Shown here piece after piece: positions 310-41,165 of a DNA stretch of 41,450 nt. Each line of letters starts with the position of its first letter. Position 1 is the first letter of the stretch. The translations under genes and the position numbers were made by a program. The stretch spans positions 1-41,450 of the forward strand of contig NZ_FOOH01000034.1 of NCBI RefSeq assembly GCF_900113135.1, written 5' to 3'. The DNA comes from Salegentibacter agarivorans. Lineage in GTDB: Bacteria; Bacteroidota; Bacteroidia; Flavobacteriales; Flavobacteriaceae. Under the pieces are notes generated by a model. The model saw only the letters and a program-made list of their open reading frames with translations, was not told where the DNA came from and made no database searches.

Positions 310-413
310 CGTCATCCTGAATTTATTTCAGAGCCTGCTCCGATTTTATATCGGGGATCTAGGTTGTAACTAATCAAAACATGTTAGAAGCTGAAAACAA
401 GTTCAGCTTGACG
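310..413. repeat. Two-armed palindromic repeat, copy 1 (with internal insertion)
   Basis: The left end CGTCATCCTGAA and the right end TTCAGCTTGACG are inverted relative to each other, and each arm carries its own small CTGAA/TTCAG palindrome. This copy is 104 nt. It is longer than copies 3 and 4 because about 24 nt, including a small CCGAT/ATCGG hairpin around 340-355, lie between the first TTTCAG and the GATCTA motif. Related copies are at 13370-13431, 17722-17800 and 24330-24410. It lies between the group II intron end and the 3' end of the malate:quinone oxidoreductase gene. Confidence 0.8.
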
Positions 414-13344: not shown

Positions 13345-13456
13345 AAAAAAGCCTGGAAAGTCTTGTTACCGTATAGCTGAACTTGTTTCAGCTTCTAACA
13401 TCTTAGATACTGAAACAAGTTCAGGATGACGATTAAATCAACTTTCCAGACCTTTC
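13345..13456. terminator. Outer terminator-like stem enclosing repeat copy 2
   Basis: CTGGAAAGT (13353-13361) pairs perfectly with ACTTTCCAG (13441-13449). An A-run of six precedes GC at 13351, and CCTTT follows the right arm. It lies between the converging kinase and HtpG genes. The palindromic repeat at 13370-13431 occupies its loop. Confidence 0.6.
13370..13431. repeat. Two-armed palindromic repeat, copy 2
   Basis: Two exact 15-nt inverted arms, CTGAACTTGTTTCAG (13377-13391) and CTGAAACAAGTTCAG (13410-13424), surround a short centre with TTCTAAC and TTAGA. The right end GGATGACG matches the other copies, while the left end (CGTATAG) is degenerate. At 62 nt it is the shortest copy. Confidence 0.85.
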
Positions 13457-17692: not shown

Positions 17693-17823
17693 AAAAAAGC
17701 TGTTTGAGAAGGTTTTAAAAACGTCATCCTGAATTTATTTCAGGATCTAACAAGTTGATTACTGTACTCATGTTAGAAGCTGAACCAGTTCAGCCTGACG
17801 GAAAAAAACATCTCTCAAACAGC
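17693..17823. terminator. Outer terminator-like stem enclosing repeat copy 3
   Basis: GCTGTTTGAGA (17699-17709) pairs perfectly with TCTCAAACAGC (17813-17823). An A-run of six lies just outside on the left, giving a T-run on the minus strand, so the stem could terminate the S9 peptidase transcript. The palindromic repeat at 17722-17800 lies inside it. Confidence 0.6.
17722..17800. repeat. Two-armed palindromic repeat, copy 3
   Basis: The 79-nt copy runs from CGTCATCCTGAA to GTTCAGCCTGACG. The left arm ends GGATCTAAC and the right arm begins GTTAGAAGC. Each arm contains its own short CTGAA/TTCAG palindrome, so it can fold as two small hairpins or one long one. A-rich sequence flanks both ends. 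Confidence 0.88.
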
Positions 17824-24304: not shown

Positions 24305-24438
24305 AAATTGGCTGTTTAAATGCTCCTAACGTCACTCTGAACTTGTTTCAGAGTCTAAGCTAAATTGAAACTTAATTCAAGTTAGAACCTGAAATAAATT
24401 CAGGTTGACGTAAGATGGAAATTTAAACAGCCAATTTT
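24305..24438. terminator. Outer terminator-like stem enclosing repeat copy 4
   Basis: AAATTGGCTGTTTAAAT (24305-24321) pairs over 17 perfect base pairs with ATTTAAACAGCCAATTT (24421-24437). It lies between the converging DUF4136 and pheT genes, 20 nt after one stop codon and 8 nt from the other. The 81-nt palindromic repeat sits inside it, with 8-10 nt of spacer on each side. Confidence 0.65.
24330..24410. repeat. Two-armed palindromic repeat, copy 4
   Basis: The 81-nt copy starts CGTCACTCTGAACTTG and ends AATTCAGGTTGACG. The left arm has CTGAACTTGTTTCAG and the right arm CTGAAATAAATTCAG, each itself a short palindrome, with TCTAAGC and GTTAGAAC at the inner edges. It is the clearest example of nesting inside an unrelated stem. 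Confidence 0.88.
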
Positions 24439-29229: not shown

Positions 29230-31347
29230 ATGAAATATTCATTTATCGCCCTCCTTTTTTGCTGTAGCTGGAACTTTTATAGCCAGGCTCCCATTGCAGA
29301 TTCCCTTAATCAAGTTGAAAATATAGATTTTATAAAAGCTGATGCAGAAATTTTTGTAGATCCGGTAAATAAAGAGGTTTCGGGCGAGATTAATTACGAG
29401 TTCGAAATTTTAAAAAGCATCGATTCCTTCTATGTTGATGCGCGTAATATGAATTTTGATGAGGTTTTGCTGAACGGGGAACAAAAAAACTTCAGGAATT
29501 CCGGAACCCGTATTTGGATGAAAAATGAAATAAATCCATCAGAAAATAATTCTCTTCAACTTAAATATTCTGTTAAACCAAAAGAAGCGGTATACTTTAT
29601 AAATTGGGATATAGACGATTCTATAACGGCTCCCAAACAAATATGGACACAGGGACAGGGGAAATACACGTCTAATTGGTTGCCTTCTTTTGACGATCAG
29701 CGGGAAAAAGTAGAATTTGATATCACGTATCATTTTCCGAATGATTTAGAAGTGATGGCCAACGGAAAACTTTCTGGTACATCGGTTAGTGATTCTTTAA
29801 AAAGTTGGAATTTTGATATGCAACAGCCTATGAGCAGTTATTTACTGGCTTTTGCAGCGGCAAATTATGTTGTGGAAGAAAAGAAATCTGCTTCAGGGGT
29901 TTCTTTACAGTTTTATATGCCGGTTTCAGAAAAGAAAAATATGGAACCGACTTATAGGCACAGTAAAGAGATTTTCGACTTTCTCGAAACTGAAATTGGG
30001 GTAGCATATCCGTGGCAAAATTACAAGCAGGCACCGGTACGCGATTTTCTATATTCTGGAATGGAAAATACTACGGCTACTATTTTTGACCACGCTTTTA
30101 TTACCGATTCGATAGGTTTTACAGACCGAAATTATGTGAGCGTCAATGCACACGAACTGGCCCACCAATGGTTTGGAAATTTGGTGACCGCTGAAACGAA
30201 TAACGATCACTGGCTACACGAAGGATTTTCTACTTATTACGCGCTGCTGGCCGAACGTGAAATCTTTGGAGATGATTACTATTACTGGCAACTTTATGAA
30301 TCTGGTGAAAAACTGAAAGAAATAAGCGATAGCGGAAAAGGTGAACCGGTTACCAAAGCTAGGGCAACATCCTTAACCTATTATCAAAAAGGAGCCTGGG
30401 TTTTGCATATTTTGCGTGAGCGAGTGGGAGATGGGGCGTTTAAAAAAGCGGTGAAAAATTATTTGGAACGCTACAAGTTTCAAACCGCTACTACAGAGAA
30501 TTTTATTGCTGAGGTTGAAGCCGCTGCCAATGTTAGCTTATCTGACTTTATGGCGAAATGGTTAAACCAAACCGCTTTTCAGGGGTTTGCGGCTCTAAAT
30601 TCTTTAAAGAATTCAGATTTTATTCAAAATCATTTAAATATTCTGGCACTGCGAGAAACACCTATAGAAAAAAAGGAAGAACTTTTAAGTGCAGAACTCG
30701 ATTTCCCGGTAAGCGATTATACCGGCCAGGAAGTGGTTTATCAATTAGAAGGTGAAACTTCTGCCGGAGCTATAAATCTTTACAAAAAAGCATTTGAAAC
30801 AAACAATATTTACGTTCGCCAGGCTATTGCCACCAGTATGGAGAGAATTCCGCAGGAATTAAAATCAAAATTTGAATCTCTGCTCAAGGATGAATCCTAT
30901 GTTACTAAAGAAGCCGCTCTGCTTAAATTATGGATGAATTTTCCCCAAGAAGTTTCCACCTATTTAGATCAGACCAAGGGAATCGAAGGATTTACCAATA
31001 AAAATGTACGAATGCTCTGGCTTACCTTAAACCTGGTGACACCAAATTACGAACCTGAGAAACAACAGGAAACATATAATGAGCTTTCGGGTTATACCGC
31101 TACCCATTTTCCAATTGAAGTAAGGGAGAATGCTTTTGGCTATTTATACCAGATAAATAGTTTTACCAATCAAAACCTGCTGGACTTGATGCAGGGAACC
31201 CAGCACCCAACTTACAGGTTTAGAAATTATTCCAGGCAGTTATTAAATGAGCTGCTTAAAAACGAAGAATATCGTAAGAAATTCTTAGCTTTAAAGGATA
31301 GTCTTTCTCAAAAAGAACAGGATTATTTGCAAACAAAACTCAATTAA
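29230..31347 (+). CDS. M1 family aminopeptidase (secreted)
   Basis: A 705-residue zinc aminopeptidase with a signal peptide (residues 1-19, ending FYSQ). The exopeptidase motif of the GAMEN type appears as SGMEN (276-280). The zinc site is HELAHQWFGN with His308 and His312, and the third ligand Glu331 in WLHEGFSTYY. The C-terminal third is a helical repeat region. It probably trims peptides in the periplasm or at the cell surface. Its TAA overlaps the ATG of the first patatin gene (TAATG at 31345-31349), so translation is likely coupled into the two patatin genes. Confidence 0.93.
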   Translation: MKYSFIALLFCCSWNFYSQAPIADSLNQVENIDFIKADAEIFVDPVNKEVSGEINYEFEILKSIDSFYVDARNMNFDEVLLNGEQKNFRNSGTRIWMKNEINPSENNSLQLKYSVKPKEAVYFINWDIDDSITAPKQIWTQGQGKYTSNWLPSFDDQREKVEFDITYHFPNDLEVMANGKLSGTSVSDSLKSWNFDMQQPMSSYLLAFAAANYVVEEKKSASGVSLQFYMPVSEKKNMEPTYRHSKEIFDFLETEIGVAYPWQNYKQAPVRDFLYSGMENTTATIFDHAFITDSIGFTDRNYVSVNAHELAHQWFGNLVTAETNNDHWLHEGFSTYYALLAEREIFGDDYYYWQLYESGEKLKEISDSGKGEPVTKARATSLTYYQKGAWVLHILRERVGDGAFKKAVKNYLERYKFQTATTENFIAEVEAAANVSLSDFMAKWLNQTAFQGFAALNSLKNSDFIQNHLNILALRETPIEKKEELLSAELDFPVSDYTGQEVVYQLEGETSAGAINLYKKAFETNNIYVRQAIATSMERIPQELKSKFESLLKDESYVTKEAALLKLWMNFPQEVSTYLDQTKGIEGFTNKNVRMLWLTLNLVTPNYEPEKQQETYNELSGYTATHFPIEVRENAFGYLYQINSFTNQNLLDLMQGTQHPTYRFRNYSRQLLNELLKNEEYRKKFLALKDSLSQKEQDYLQTKLN

Positions 31348-32249
31348 TGAGGGCATTGGTAATATCGGGAGGAGGCAGTAAAGGCGCTTTTGCCGGTGGG
31401 GTAGCCCAGTATTTAATTGAAGAATTACAGCGCGATTACGAACTATATTTAGGAACTTCTACGGGGAGTTTACTTATTTCTCATCTTGCTTTAAATAAGT
31501 GTGAAAAAATAAAAAACATTTATACTACGGTAAATCAAAGTAGTATCTTTAGTAATCGCCCTTTTCTTATAAAAAGACGTCACGGCTACGATCAAATTAG
31601 CATAAATCACTTAAACGTACTTCTAAATTTTCTAAAAGGAAAAAAGACTTTTGGTGAAAGTAAAAACCTTAAAAAACTTATTGAAGCCACTTTAACCAAA
31701 GAAGAATTCTTAAGTTTACAAGCCGCGAAAAAGGATATTGTGGTAACGGTTTCTAATATTTCTTTAAATACGGTAGAATATAAATCGATTAAAGATTTTG
31801 AATACGAGGAGTTTTGTGAATGGATCTGGATTTCCTGTAATTACACGCCTTTTATGAGTCTTGTGCAAAAAAATGGTTGCGAATATGCCGATGGTGGGCT
31901 GGGAACGATGGTCCCAATTGAAGAAGCAATAAAAAGAGGCGCTACCCATATTGATGCGATTATTTTACAAACTGAAGCTACTTTTTATAATAGGATGCCT
32001 TCTAAAAACGTTTTTGGACTCATTACTAATTTGTTTCGGTTTATGTTGGACAGGATCGAATCTCAGAATATTAAAATAGGGAAATTTGCGGCAGCCAATA
32101 AAAATGTAACTATAAATTTTTACTACACCCCTACGGTATTGACTACCAATTCCCTTATTTTTGATGAAAAGCAAATGAAATCCTGGTGGAAAAGCGGTTA
32201 TAAGTTTGCCGAAGAAAAAAGCGAGGAAATTAATCAAATTGAACCTTAA
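31347..32249 (+). CDS. Patatin-like phospholipase, tandem copy 1
   Basis: A 300-residue acyl hydrolase of the patatin family, which cleaves acyl chains from phospholipids with a Ser-Asp dyad. The oxyanion motif GGGSKGAFAGG starts at residue 8, the nucleophile Ser38 lies in GTSTGS and the catalytic Asp182 in ADGG. There is no signal peptide; the protein starts directly with MRALVISGGG, so it is probably cytosolic. It is about 63% identical to the next gene over the first 200 residues (hand alignment, no gaps), indicating a tandem duplication. The start overlaps the upstream stop, and its own stop overlaps the next start in the same TAATG way. Confidence 0.92.
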   Translation: MRALVISGGGSKGAFAGGVAQYLIEELQRDYELYLGTSTGSLLISHLALNKCEKIKNIYTTVNQSSIFSNRPFLIKRRHGYDQISINHLNVLLNFLKGKKTFGESKNLKKLIEATLTKEEFLSLQAAKKDIVVTVSNISLNTVEYKSIKDFEYEEFCEWIWISCNYTPFMSLVQKNGCEYADGGLGTMVPIEEAIKRGATHIDAIILQTEATFYNRMPSKNVFGLITNLFRFMLDRIESQNIKIGKFAAANKNVTINFYYTPTVLTTNSLIFDEKQMKSWWKSGYKFAEEKSEEINQIEP

Positions 32250-33172
32250 TGCGTGCACTGGTAATATCTGGCGGGGGCAGTAAAGGCGCCTTCGCAGGAG
32301 GCGTTGCTCAATATTTAATTCAGGAAGAGGGCAAGAAATACGATTTGTTTCTTGGTACTTCAACCGGGAGCTTGCTTATTCCGCATCTCGCGATGGGAAA
32401 TATAGATAAGGTTTACGAGATCTACACCAATGTAAACCAGCGTAAGATTTTTAGCATAAATCCTTTTGTAGTTAAACGAAAAGAAGGAAGGGAGTATGTG
32501 ACCATCAATTACTTTAATATGTTCTGGCAGTTTGTGCGGAAGAAAAGAACTTTTGGAGAAAGCCAAAACCTTAGAAAACATATAAAAAGAAATTTTTCTG
32601 AAGAAGATTTTAGTAAGCTTAAAAACCAGGTTGAAGATGTAATTGTAACAGTTTCCAATTTATCTAAAAACCGCGTAGAATATAAGTCGATTAACGATTT
32701 TTCTTACGAAGATTTTTGCGACTGGATTTGGATAAGTTGTAATTATATTCCATTTATGAGCCTTGCTAATAAAGACGGATTTGAATATGCCGATGGCGGA
32801 CTTGGTTGCGTGGTACCTATACGGGAAGCCATAAAACGCGGCGCAACAGAAGTTGATGCGATTATTCTTGAAGCCGAAAATATGGAGTATAATAAGGTTC
32901 TGGGGAAAAATCCATTTTCGTTAATGATCAATCTTTTTGGATTTTTACTGGACCAGGTAGAATACCACGATATTGTAGAGGGCAAACTAGCGGCTTTAAA
33001 CAAAAAAGTAAAACTAAATACCTATTACACGCCAACAAAATTGACCGAAAACTCACTGGTTTTTAATAAAAAATTAATGGGGGAATGGTGGCAGCAAGGT
33101 TACGATCACGCCAAGGAAAAGCATTTGCAATTTCTGGCAACCAAACGCAAAAGTTTCTTCGGATTGTTTTAA
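32249..33172 (+). CDS. Patatin-like phospholipase, tandem copy 2
   Basis: A 307-residue paralogue of the upstream gene with the same layout: GGGSKGAFAGG, Ser38 in GTSTGS and Asp182 in ADGG. The regions around the catalytic residues (TVSN, VEYKSI, WIWISCNY, PFMSL) are nearly identical, while residues 51-130 have drifted. It starts on a TAATG overlap with copy 1. Its stop codon (33170-33172) overlaps the stop codon of the converging gene by 2 nt, leaving no space for a terminator hairpin. Both copies keep their catalytic residues, so neither looks degraded. Confidence 0.92.
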   Translation: MRALVISGGGSKGAFAGGVAQYLIQEEGKKYDLFLGTSTGSLLIPHLAMGNIDKVYEIYTNVNQRKIFSINPFVVKRKEGREYVTINYFNMFWQFVRKKRTFGESQNLRKHIKRNFSEEDFSKLKNQVEDVIVTVSNLSKNRVEYKSINDFSYEDFCDWIWISCNYIPFMSLANKDGFEYADGGLGCVVPIREAIKRGATEVDAIILEAENMEYNKVLGKNPFSLMINLFGFLLDQVEYHDIVEGKLAALNKKVKLNTYYTPTKLTENSLVFNKKLMGEWWQQGYDHAKEKHLQFLATKRKSFFGLF

Positions 33173-41097: not shown

Positions 41098-41130
41098 AAA
41101 AGAGGCTGTCTGAAAAGGCAGCCTTTCTTG
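41098..41130 (+). terminator. Terminator-like hairpin after the hydrolase gene, possibly the left end of the IS
   Basis: AGGCTGTC (41103-41110) pairs with GGCAGCCT (41117-41124) around a TGAAAA loop, followed by TTCTTG. It lies 23 nt after the hydrolase stop and 42 nt before the transposase start. GAGGCTGTCTGAAAA also resembles the terminal repeats I recall for some IS1182-like elements, so it may be both the terminator and the insertion sequence end. Confidence 0.55.
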
Positions 41131-41165
41131 TTGGATTATTTTGAGGTTTTTATTATTTTCATGTA

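Follow-up and report, generated by a model that had tools for sequence, protein, structure and literature searches.

CGTC-tagged REP pairs within terminator-like hairpins of Salegentibacter agarivorans: nesting above chance, REP-free orthologous hairpins and in-place inversion of the loop

The window considered here, that is, the whole stretch of 41,450 nucleotides of Salegentibacter agarivorans DNA that was analyzed, contains a palindromic repeat nested in the loop of a larger hairpin. Our account of it is that a bidirectional intrinsic terminator was there first and that its loop now holds an inverted CGTC-type REP pair, and we hold this account, including the mechanism proposed below, with moderate confidence. 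Comparison of genomes (G numbers below; loci are given L numbers) shows orthologous sites at which the same stem lacks the repeat (copy 4 in G001 and copy 2 in G006), copies of the repeat elsewhere that have no stem, and loop contents that invert in situ while the stem stays.

An earlier note on this DNA described an 81-nt repeat at 24330-24410 within a perfect 17-bp outer inverted repeat and counted four copies of the inner repeat in the window. The sequence confirms both statements, the copies being at 310-413, 13370-13431, 17722-17800 and 24330-24410 (copies 1 to 4). The note also placed all copies between converging genes; this holds for copies 2-4, which have convergent ORFs around them, while copy 1 lies at the window edge and is left unclassified. 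The parts are as follows.

24305..24321, + strand: left arm of the outer stem of copy 4, AAATTGGCTGTTTAAAT, 17 bp, perfect complement of 24421-24437
24322..24329, + strand: left spacer of copy 4, from stem to repeat, which flips with the repeat in G008 and G007
24330..24410, + strand: CGTC-tagged REP pair of copy 4, from the unit pattern and the 8-unit alignment
24411..24420, + strand: right spacer of copy 4, from repeat to stem
24421..24437, + strand: right arm of the outer stem of copy 4, with T-rich sequence next to it
17699..17709, + strand: left arm of the outer stem of copy 3 (stem score 26; RNA fold)
17722..17800, + strand: REP pair of copy 3, the entire loop being inverted in G007
17813..17823, + strand: right arm of the outer stem of copy 3 (RNA fold)
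13353..13361, + strand: left arm of the outer stem of copy 2 (stem score 21; RNA fold)
13370..13431, + strand: REP pair of copy 2, inverted in three related species (G003, G005 and G007), absent from G006 and, by eye, with a shortened loop in G011
13441..13449, + strand: right arm of the outer stem of copy 2 (RNA fold)
310..413, + strand: REP pair of copy 1, whose left half holds an additional small hairpin

No outer stem was found when the flanks of copy 1 were scored (score 7). Directly before this copy, at 203-293, there is the end of a group II intron (Rfam RF00029, 41.8 bits). At the site of this intron, G007 has a terminator-like hairpin and no intron in the stretch shown, and from this comparison the intron seems to be located just downstream of a terminator. 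Elsewhere in the window, at 31347-33172, two adjacent ORFs have an 81-nt stretch in common with 80% identity, which looks like a tandem gene duplication.

The RNA of copy 4 is predicted to form a single long nested hairpin of −53.9 kcal/mol, compared to a shuffle mean of −20.7 kcal/mol (z −9.8), and none of the 200 shuffles matched this energy. The two strands are nearly equal, at −53.9 and −56.0 kcal/mol. Both the outer and the inner stems are closed in the folds of copies 2-4 (for copy 4 on both strands, for copies 2 and 3 on one), and the loops of the window copies are 79-125 nt long. The outer hairpin fits an intrinsic bidirectional terminator in that it has a G+C-containing stem, an A tract before it, a T tract after it and convergent genes, the A/T tracts around the outer stems having been judged by eye. 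It thus looks like a bidirectional terminator, a function that we infer from this anatomy. Copy 4 was not recognized by a terminator scanner, which allows loops of 3-8 nt only, nor by an Rfam search, in which the matches were weak ones to miRNA precursors, all below the gathering scores and attributable to the long hairpin alone.

The inner repeat of copy 4 consists of two opposed palindromic units, with the unit pattern GTCANNCTGAANNNNNTTCAG at 24331 (+) and 24389 (−). Alignment of the 8 units of the window gives the rough consensus CGTCA-NN-CTGAA-N5-TTCAG-NN-CTAA, in which CGT is invariant (8/8) and the tag CGTC is found at the unit end in 7/8. The core CTGAA/TTCAG is present in all 8 units and the 5-nt loop in 6/8, while the full 8-bp stem is seen in 4/8, the remaining units being mismatched in the outer three pairs. 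The 4.30-Mb genome (56 contigs) contains 78+86 = 164 exact units, with 0 for the reversed-pattern control, and 99+110 sites when up to one mismatch is allowed, with 0 and 2 for the control. Exact matches occur in 84 of the 199 sampled family genomes, and all listed controls are 0. In a sample of 72 elements, defined below, inverted pairs with the tags outermost account for 49 and singles for 23.

REPs with a CGTC tag were described in 2013 by Di Nocera et al. (PMC3733652), whose accessible text names 'G. forsetii' among the carriers and considers these repeats to be apparently without a dedicated transposase. With the REPs described there, the present repeat has in common the CGTC tag, the short AT-started stem and the 5-nt loop, and also the mostly paired units, the location in convergent or tandem gene gaps and the lack of an associated transposase. 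The 8-bp stem starting with A-T pairs and the 5-nt loop are found in the window units, and the tail after the stem is CTAA-like instead of near to CCA; since most, but not all, tails fit CCA in the accessible part of PMC3733652, this is a difference of family and not an exclusion from the superfamily. The tag, the AT-started stem, the 5-nt loop, the pairing and the absence of a tyrosine-transposase link thus point to the known CGTC-REP kind, and the inner repeat fits an inverted pair of this type, probably family 2-like, and is not new. We take 'G. forsetii' to be Gramella forsetii, a flavobacterium close to Salegentibacter.

Regarding the spread of the pairs, a pattern with an inner gap of 5-34 found nothing in G209, and a wider pair pattern was present in 5 of 8 genomes and in none of G010, G209 and G192. 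No REP pair was found among the pheT loci of the family (L069-L142). A second REP type, CGTCATTGCGA, occurs at 4 places in the S. agarivorans genome. In G126 (G126:C1:2144870-2146819 and 3175835-3178032), near-identical REP pairs recur about every 0.8-1.2 kb, which suggests tandem duplication of a gene together with the repeat.

An inverted REP pair could belong to a RAYT-driven REPIN population as in Pseudomonas. The repeat resembles such systems in its short palindromes, inverted pairs, high copy number and extragenic location (cf. PMC3116915 and PMC8049555), and PF01797 proteins occur in 72 of the 199 sampled family genomes. However, a PF01797 profile search of the S. agarivorans genome gave no match at E 0.001. 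REPIN/RAYT systems further differ from the present repeat in having a GTAG-type tag, according to the accessible text of PMC3733652, and a cognate transposase: here the tag is CGTC, and no RAYT gene clearly flanked by the same REP was found at 26 transposase loci of other genomes. Thirteen of these, searched with the exact pattern, gave no CGTC-type repeat in the flanks, and 13 more, searched with up to two mismatches, gave one lone two-mismatch site near a transposase gene; the 26 include loci of the REP-rich genomes G209, G097 and G136, but some of the other genomes hold few or none of the repeat. A RAYT as the mover is thus not supported by the own genome, the 199 family genomes or the 26 loci, and we consider this explanation very unlikely. 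The lack of an associated transposase noted above refers to tyrosine transposases only.

The frequency of nesting was assessed for 72 elements, drawn from the window and from the 100 exact places that head the list, out of 164 exact units; to arrive at this number, four nested or chance rows were left out (one in L029, one in L040 and two in L046) and L020 was retyped. Outer arms were scored by the complementarity of the flanks within 32 nt, and the expectation was obtained from mismatched flanks. At a score of at least 18, outer arms are found for 18 of the 72 elements, compared to 3.1 expected, and at a score of at least 22 for 14, compared to 0.9 expected. By gene context, the elements nested at a score of at least 18 are 13/26 in convergent, 5/41 in tandem and 0/4 in divergent gaps, and 0/1 at a contig edge. 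Of the 17 loci with a score of at least 22, 15 have spacers of 0-14 nt on each side. In five other genera, outer arms were found at 7 of 16 pairs (1.6 expected), the 16 being the loci returned of 46 pairs found. These enrichments support the part of the earlier note's reading that ties the repeat to terminator-like hairpins. Its stronger alternative, that the repeat is tolerated only in terminators, has to be given up: 54 of the 72 sampled elements lack an outer stem at a score of at least 18, which is the majority of stem-less copies that the note itself had regarded as evidence against its reading. The repeat can therefore exist outside terminators and does not need a loop. Most sampled copies are un-nested, yet nested ones greatly exceed the chance expectation and are common where genes converge.

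One explanation of this distribution would involve no targeting at all, REP pairs inserting anywhere and the survivors being those located where harm is least, in terminator loops and beyond gene ends. It would account for the copies that lie beside terminators and in tandem gaps, and for the general location of REPs at the 3' ends of genes that is reported in the accessible text of PMC3733652. However, 13 of the 26 copies in convergent gaps are inside a hairpin, although the loop takes up little of the gap and an insertion right next to the hairpin should be about as harmless. We regard untargeted insertion as a real possibility, although we incline against it.

The earlier note took the outer stem to be unrelated because the three complete stems differ in sequence, an inference that is only half right. 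The stems do differ base by base, but their similarity is above chance and they vary around a common consensus, AAARGGYTGTYTGAAAAGT. An arm similarity of at least 18 is found for 60% of the locus pairs, compared to 9.0% for shuffled arms and 8.5% for stem-less pair loci (17 stem loci were compared, one low-scoring locus being excluded, and the shuffles preserve base composition). The conservation of the arms among copies that the note had counted as an argument against its proposal is thus present in a weak form. Hairpins with a GGCTGTYT stem and a short loop, too short for a REP pair, were found in all 15 genus genomes, with 2-8 forward matches each and at 6 places in the S. agarivorans genome, compared to 0-1 per genome for the control. 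Our reading is that the outer stem would be a common terminator type of the genus, with or without a REP inside.

We have also considered that the outer stem is the end of a resident insertion sequence, an option that was rejected after six matches to AAAAGNCTGTYTGAAAAG (L182-L187) had been checked. Three of them (L182, L185 and L187) are terminator-like hairpins and two (L183 and L186) are stem-bearing REP loci, and L184 did not match the pattern applied to these loci. A sequence starting with AAGAGGCTGTCTGAAAAGGCAGCCTTT is common to L182 and L187 (window 41100-41150), and the 18 bases at its start are found again close to the ends of several contigs of the own genome (G000); it is possibly the edge of a multicopy element adjoining a terminator-like hairpin.

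The likeness of the arms could alternatively mean that a terminator-like terminal repeat near AAAGAGGCTGTYTGAAAAGT and the REP pair move together as a composite mobile unit, with the stem-less copies being eroded. In addition to the 60% against 9.0% of similar locus pairs, this would be in line with the same kind of stem around REP pairs in another genus (L300, L305 and L314, all in G136), with L061 of the own genome, seemingly an eroded stem locus whose counterpart in G008 is complete, and with the consensus palindromes that surround REPs elsewhere, in two species found only together with REPs according to the accessible text of PMC3733652. However, the same stem is found at REP-free orthologous sites (copy 4 in G001 and copy 2 in G006), short-loop hairpins of the same stem type are present in 15/15 genomes, many stem-less copies have clean CGTC...GACG ends, and a different REP type is located at the same place in G003 (L015b). 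We thus consider a composite unit to be unlikely. No target duplication could be defined for the REP-pair insertions; the arms share a consensus, yet they persist where the repeat is absent.

We now turn to the orthologous sites. The 19 stem loci used here are 14 own loci, the three window copies (score of at least 18), and L183 and L186, which were located by stem search; L031, the eighteenth nested element, was excluded as a likely chance match. A species tree from six coding segments places G001 outside the filled clade (support 98) and G006 inside it (supports 100). The outer stem of copy 4 is conserved in 8 filled relatives (the arm pattern misses G003), and the site in G001 reads TGGCTGTTTAA-TTTAGG-TTAAACAGCCA, with a loop of ca 6 nt, the same stem core and no repeat. 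In G012, the most distant species, a decayed REP-like pair is found beside, not inside, the terminator, which indicates that the history at copy 4 may be longer than one insertion. The copy 2 site in G006 is the bare hairpin GGCCTGGAAA-GTTAAG-TTTCCAGGCC, while its sister species carry the repeat, so that here the repeat has apparently been lost and the hairpin kept. Plain hairpins occupy the sites of the window copies in several species that are more distant. At L015b, where own and G008 carry the CTGAA type, G003 (L232) has the different REP type CGTCATTGCGA in the corresponding position; there the right arm is intact, while part of the left arm has eroded.

In the scan of G001, 7 of the 19 stem loci had no usable region (that of copy 3 being 1029 nt) and 2 further regions (538 and 787 nt) were skipped, which leaves 10 scored. 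In 8 of these 10 REP-free regions there is a hairpin that beats all 30 shuffles, which preserve base composition only. Hairpins at empty sites, as expected in the earlier note, are thus seen in 8 of the 10, the same stem core being clear in two. These two are copy 4 and L015a, and the core is partial at L015b; the other five are hairpins at the place without stem identity, among them L023, which is of low complexity and doubtful. The loops are 4-12 nt in seven of the eight and 31 nt in L015a. No hairpin above the shuffles was found at L019 and L020; L020 does have, by eye, a nested hairpin whose loop is too long for the search. Since the spacers mostly sum to more than the ca 6-nt loops of the clean REP-free sites, the insertion is not a simple cut into such a loop.

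These sites also bear on the possibility that the outer stem was made after the insertion, with template switching extending a quasi-palindrome outward. Template switching can indeed create hairpins, as reported in the accessible text of PMC8794818, but such a scenario is difficult to reconcile with the hairpins at 8 of 10 REP-free orthologous regions, with A and T tracts that by eye are like those of intrinsic terminators, and with the resemblance of the outer stems to the short-loop REP-free hairpins. We consider it highly improbable.

The loop, that is, the spacers together with the repeat, is reversed between species while the outer flanks stay forward. The comparisons were made between own, G008 and G003, and for the window copies also with other relatives, and the threshold for inversion was the 99.5th percentile of 19,200 non-orthologous comparisons. 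Comparable pairs were available for 15 stem loci, 3 of them not scorable, and by the fixed threshold 6 of the 12 scorable ones are inverted (L058, L015a, L057, L002, copy 2 and copy 4). For copy 4, the spacers score 44 and 48 in reverse against G008 and G007, respectively, and 8 and 7 in forward orientation. Copy 3, scored separately with the spacers of G004 and G007, gives 48 in reverse and 5 in forward orientation, which brings the total to 7/12. The repeat of copy 4 is reversed in G009 too, but the spacers there are uninformative and this case is left out of the count. An assembly error is an unlikely origin, since the loops of the window copies are only 79-125 nt, one of the genomes concerned (G008) is assembled as a single contig, and three related species share the inversion of copy 2.

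At stem-less loci, no strict inversions were found in a first set (0/3 scorable; 8 loci, of which 5 not scorable and 3 the same) or in a second set compared with G008 (0/3 scorable of 23 loci, of which 1 without anchors, 8 without a REP pair in G008, 11 not scorable and 3 the same). Under a looser rule, four stem-less loci (L022, L041, L049 and L061) are oppositely oriented in one genome. Two of these, L041 and L061, resemble eroded stem loci, and L022 and L049 may represent separate insertions. Another three, L008, L028 and L051, score higher in the opposite orientation, with spacers that are not inverted or are below the threshold. The 15-nt spacers may include symmetrical arm sequence, which inflates both orientation scores at stem loci. 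The contrast of 7/12 stem loci with 0/6 scorable stem-less loci is therefore suggestive only, given the small numbers, the larger number of genomes for the window loci, the arm-containing spacers and the several stem-less loci in opposite orientation below the threshold. The conserved REP-free hairpin GGCTGTCT has the same loop orientation in 7/7 genomes; as its conserved loop suggests constraint, it says little against frequent inversion when used as a control. A hairpin near GGCTGTCTAAATACGGTGAAAGTCCTGCTTTAGACAGCC (L320, L325 and L327-L331) has a conserved loop in one orientation in 7/7 genus genomes and is perhaps a small functional RNA element.

The repeated inversions with a kept stem could in principle constitute a regulated switch, in which the two orientations of the loop terminate differently in the two directions. 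However, the stem sequences differ between loci, so that no single recombinase site is evident, and the fold energies of the two strands are near equal (see above). We find such a switch extremely improbable.

Group IIC introns, to which the earlier note had likened the repeat, likewise find a safe site at terminators, but they encode both a ribozyme and a reverse transcriptase; the comparison does not carry over, since these introns insert beside the hairpin. Hairpin-loop inversions are also known from chloroplasts, where they are short, hairpin-associated and located in noncoding DNA; they differ from the present case in occurring in plastid genomes and in having no REP element. In loop inversion by template switching, as inferred in the accessible part of PMC8794818, the loop contents invert while the stem is unchanged, with examples that include bacterial rRNA, but the rRNA loops there are typically 4 and up to 7-8 nt, in addition to one microRNA gene, compared to 79-125 nt for the terminator-like hairpins of the window copies here. 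IS1272 (PMC5678879, accessible part) is similar in that a stem-loop target is recognized by structure and not by sequence, and it differs in that this insertion sequence encodes its own transposase and takes the place of the target hairpin, whereas the target stem is kept here.

The nearest precedent is found in the accessible text of PMC3733652, where REPs inside consensus palindromes are reported for A. variabilis, T. roseum and H. neapolitanus. Closest among these is T. roseum, whose palindromes are small and degenerate, with 3-4-nt loops and hundreds of copies in that genome, and also occur unoccupied; neither a terminator nor inversion is mentioned in that accessible text. The earlier note had not known the arrangement to be described. 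This does not hold for the REP type, known since 2013, nor for REPs in palindromes (PMC3733652, as far as accessible), but it does for the other parts: in the open-licence literature searched, we found neither CGTC-REP pairs in locus-specific terminator-like loops with REP-free orthologous hairpins, nor repeated in-place inversion of loops around REP pairs. Already known are thus the REP type, the pairs, the location at gene ends and, for the three species just named, REPs enclosed by consensus palindromes; new relative to the accessible text of PMC3733652 would be the terminator-like hosts between facing genes, the orthologous REP-free and filled states and the loop inversion.

The mechanism that we propose for the REP pair in a pre-existing terminator is the following. 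The pair would enter hairpin loops preferentially, probably when these are extruded as single-stranded DNA, by means of an enzyme activity that seeks hairpin loops. It would be tolerated there because it is self-complementary and folds on itself, such that the arms of the terminator are kept together in both transcripts; the copy 4 fold, in which both strands keep the stem closed, would explain this tolerance. At replication of the nested palindrome, the polymerase may switch template between the arms, and the loop would then be inverted, shortened or deleted, which makes the terminator a shelter and also a source of instability. It is important to note that a purely structural target does not predict the common consensus of the outer stems.

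More generally, and only tentatively, one can speculate that the CGTC-REP pairs of Flavobacteriaceae enter by structure, a single-strand enzyme acting on extruded terminator loops, that REP types compete for these sites, and that the terminator thereby becomes a self-inverting palindrome of ca 100 nt, flipping about as slowly as species diverge. The CGTC-type REPs are a family without a known way of moving, and a structure-defined landing site would help to find the mover, for which the orthologous REP-free and filled states provide a handle. The repeated inversion of a loop of ca 100 nt suggests that palindrome-driven rearrangement can be concentrated at bacterial terminators while leaving their outer stem intact, and it offers a natural test of template switching. 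Gene ends may thus be both an unexpected shelter and a mutation hotspot.
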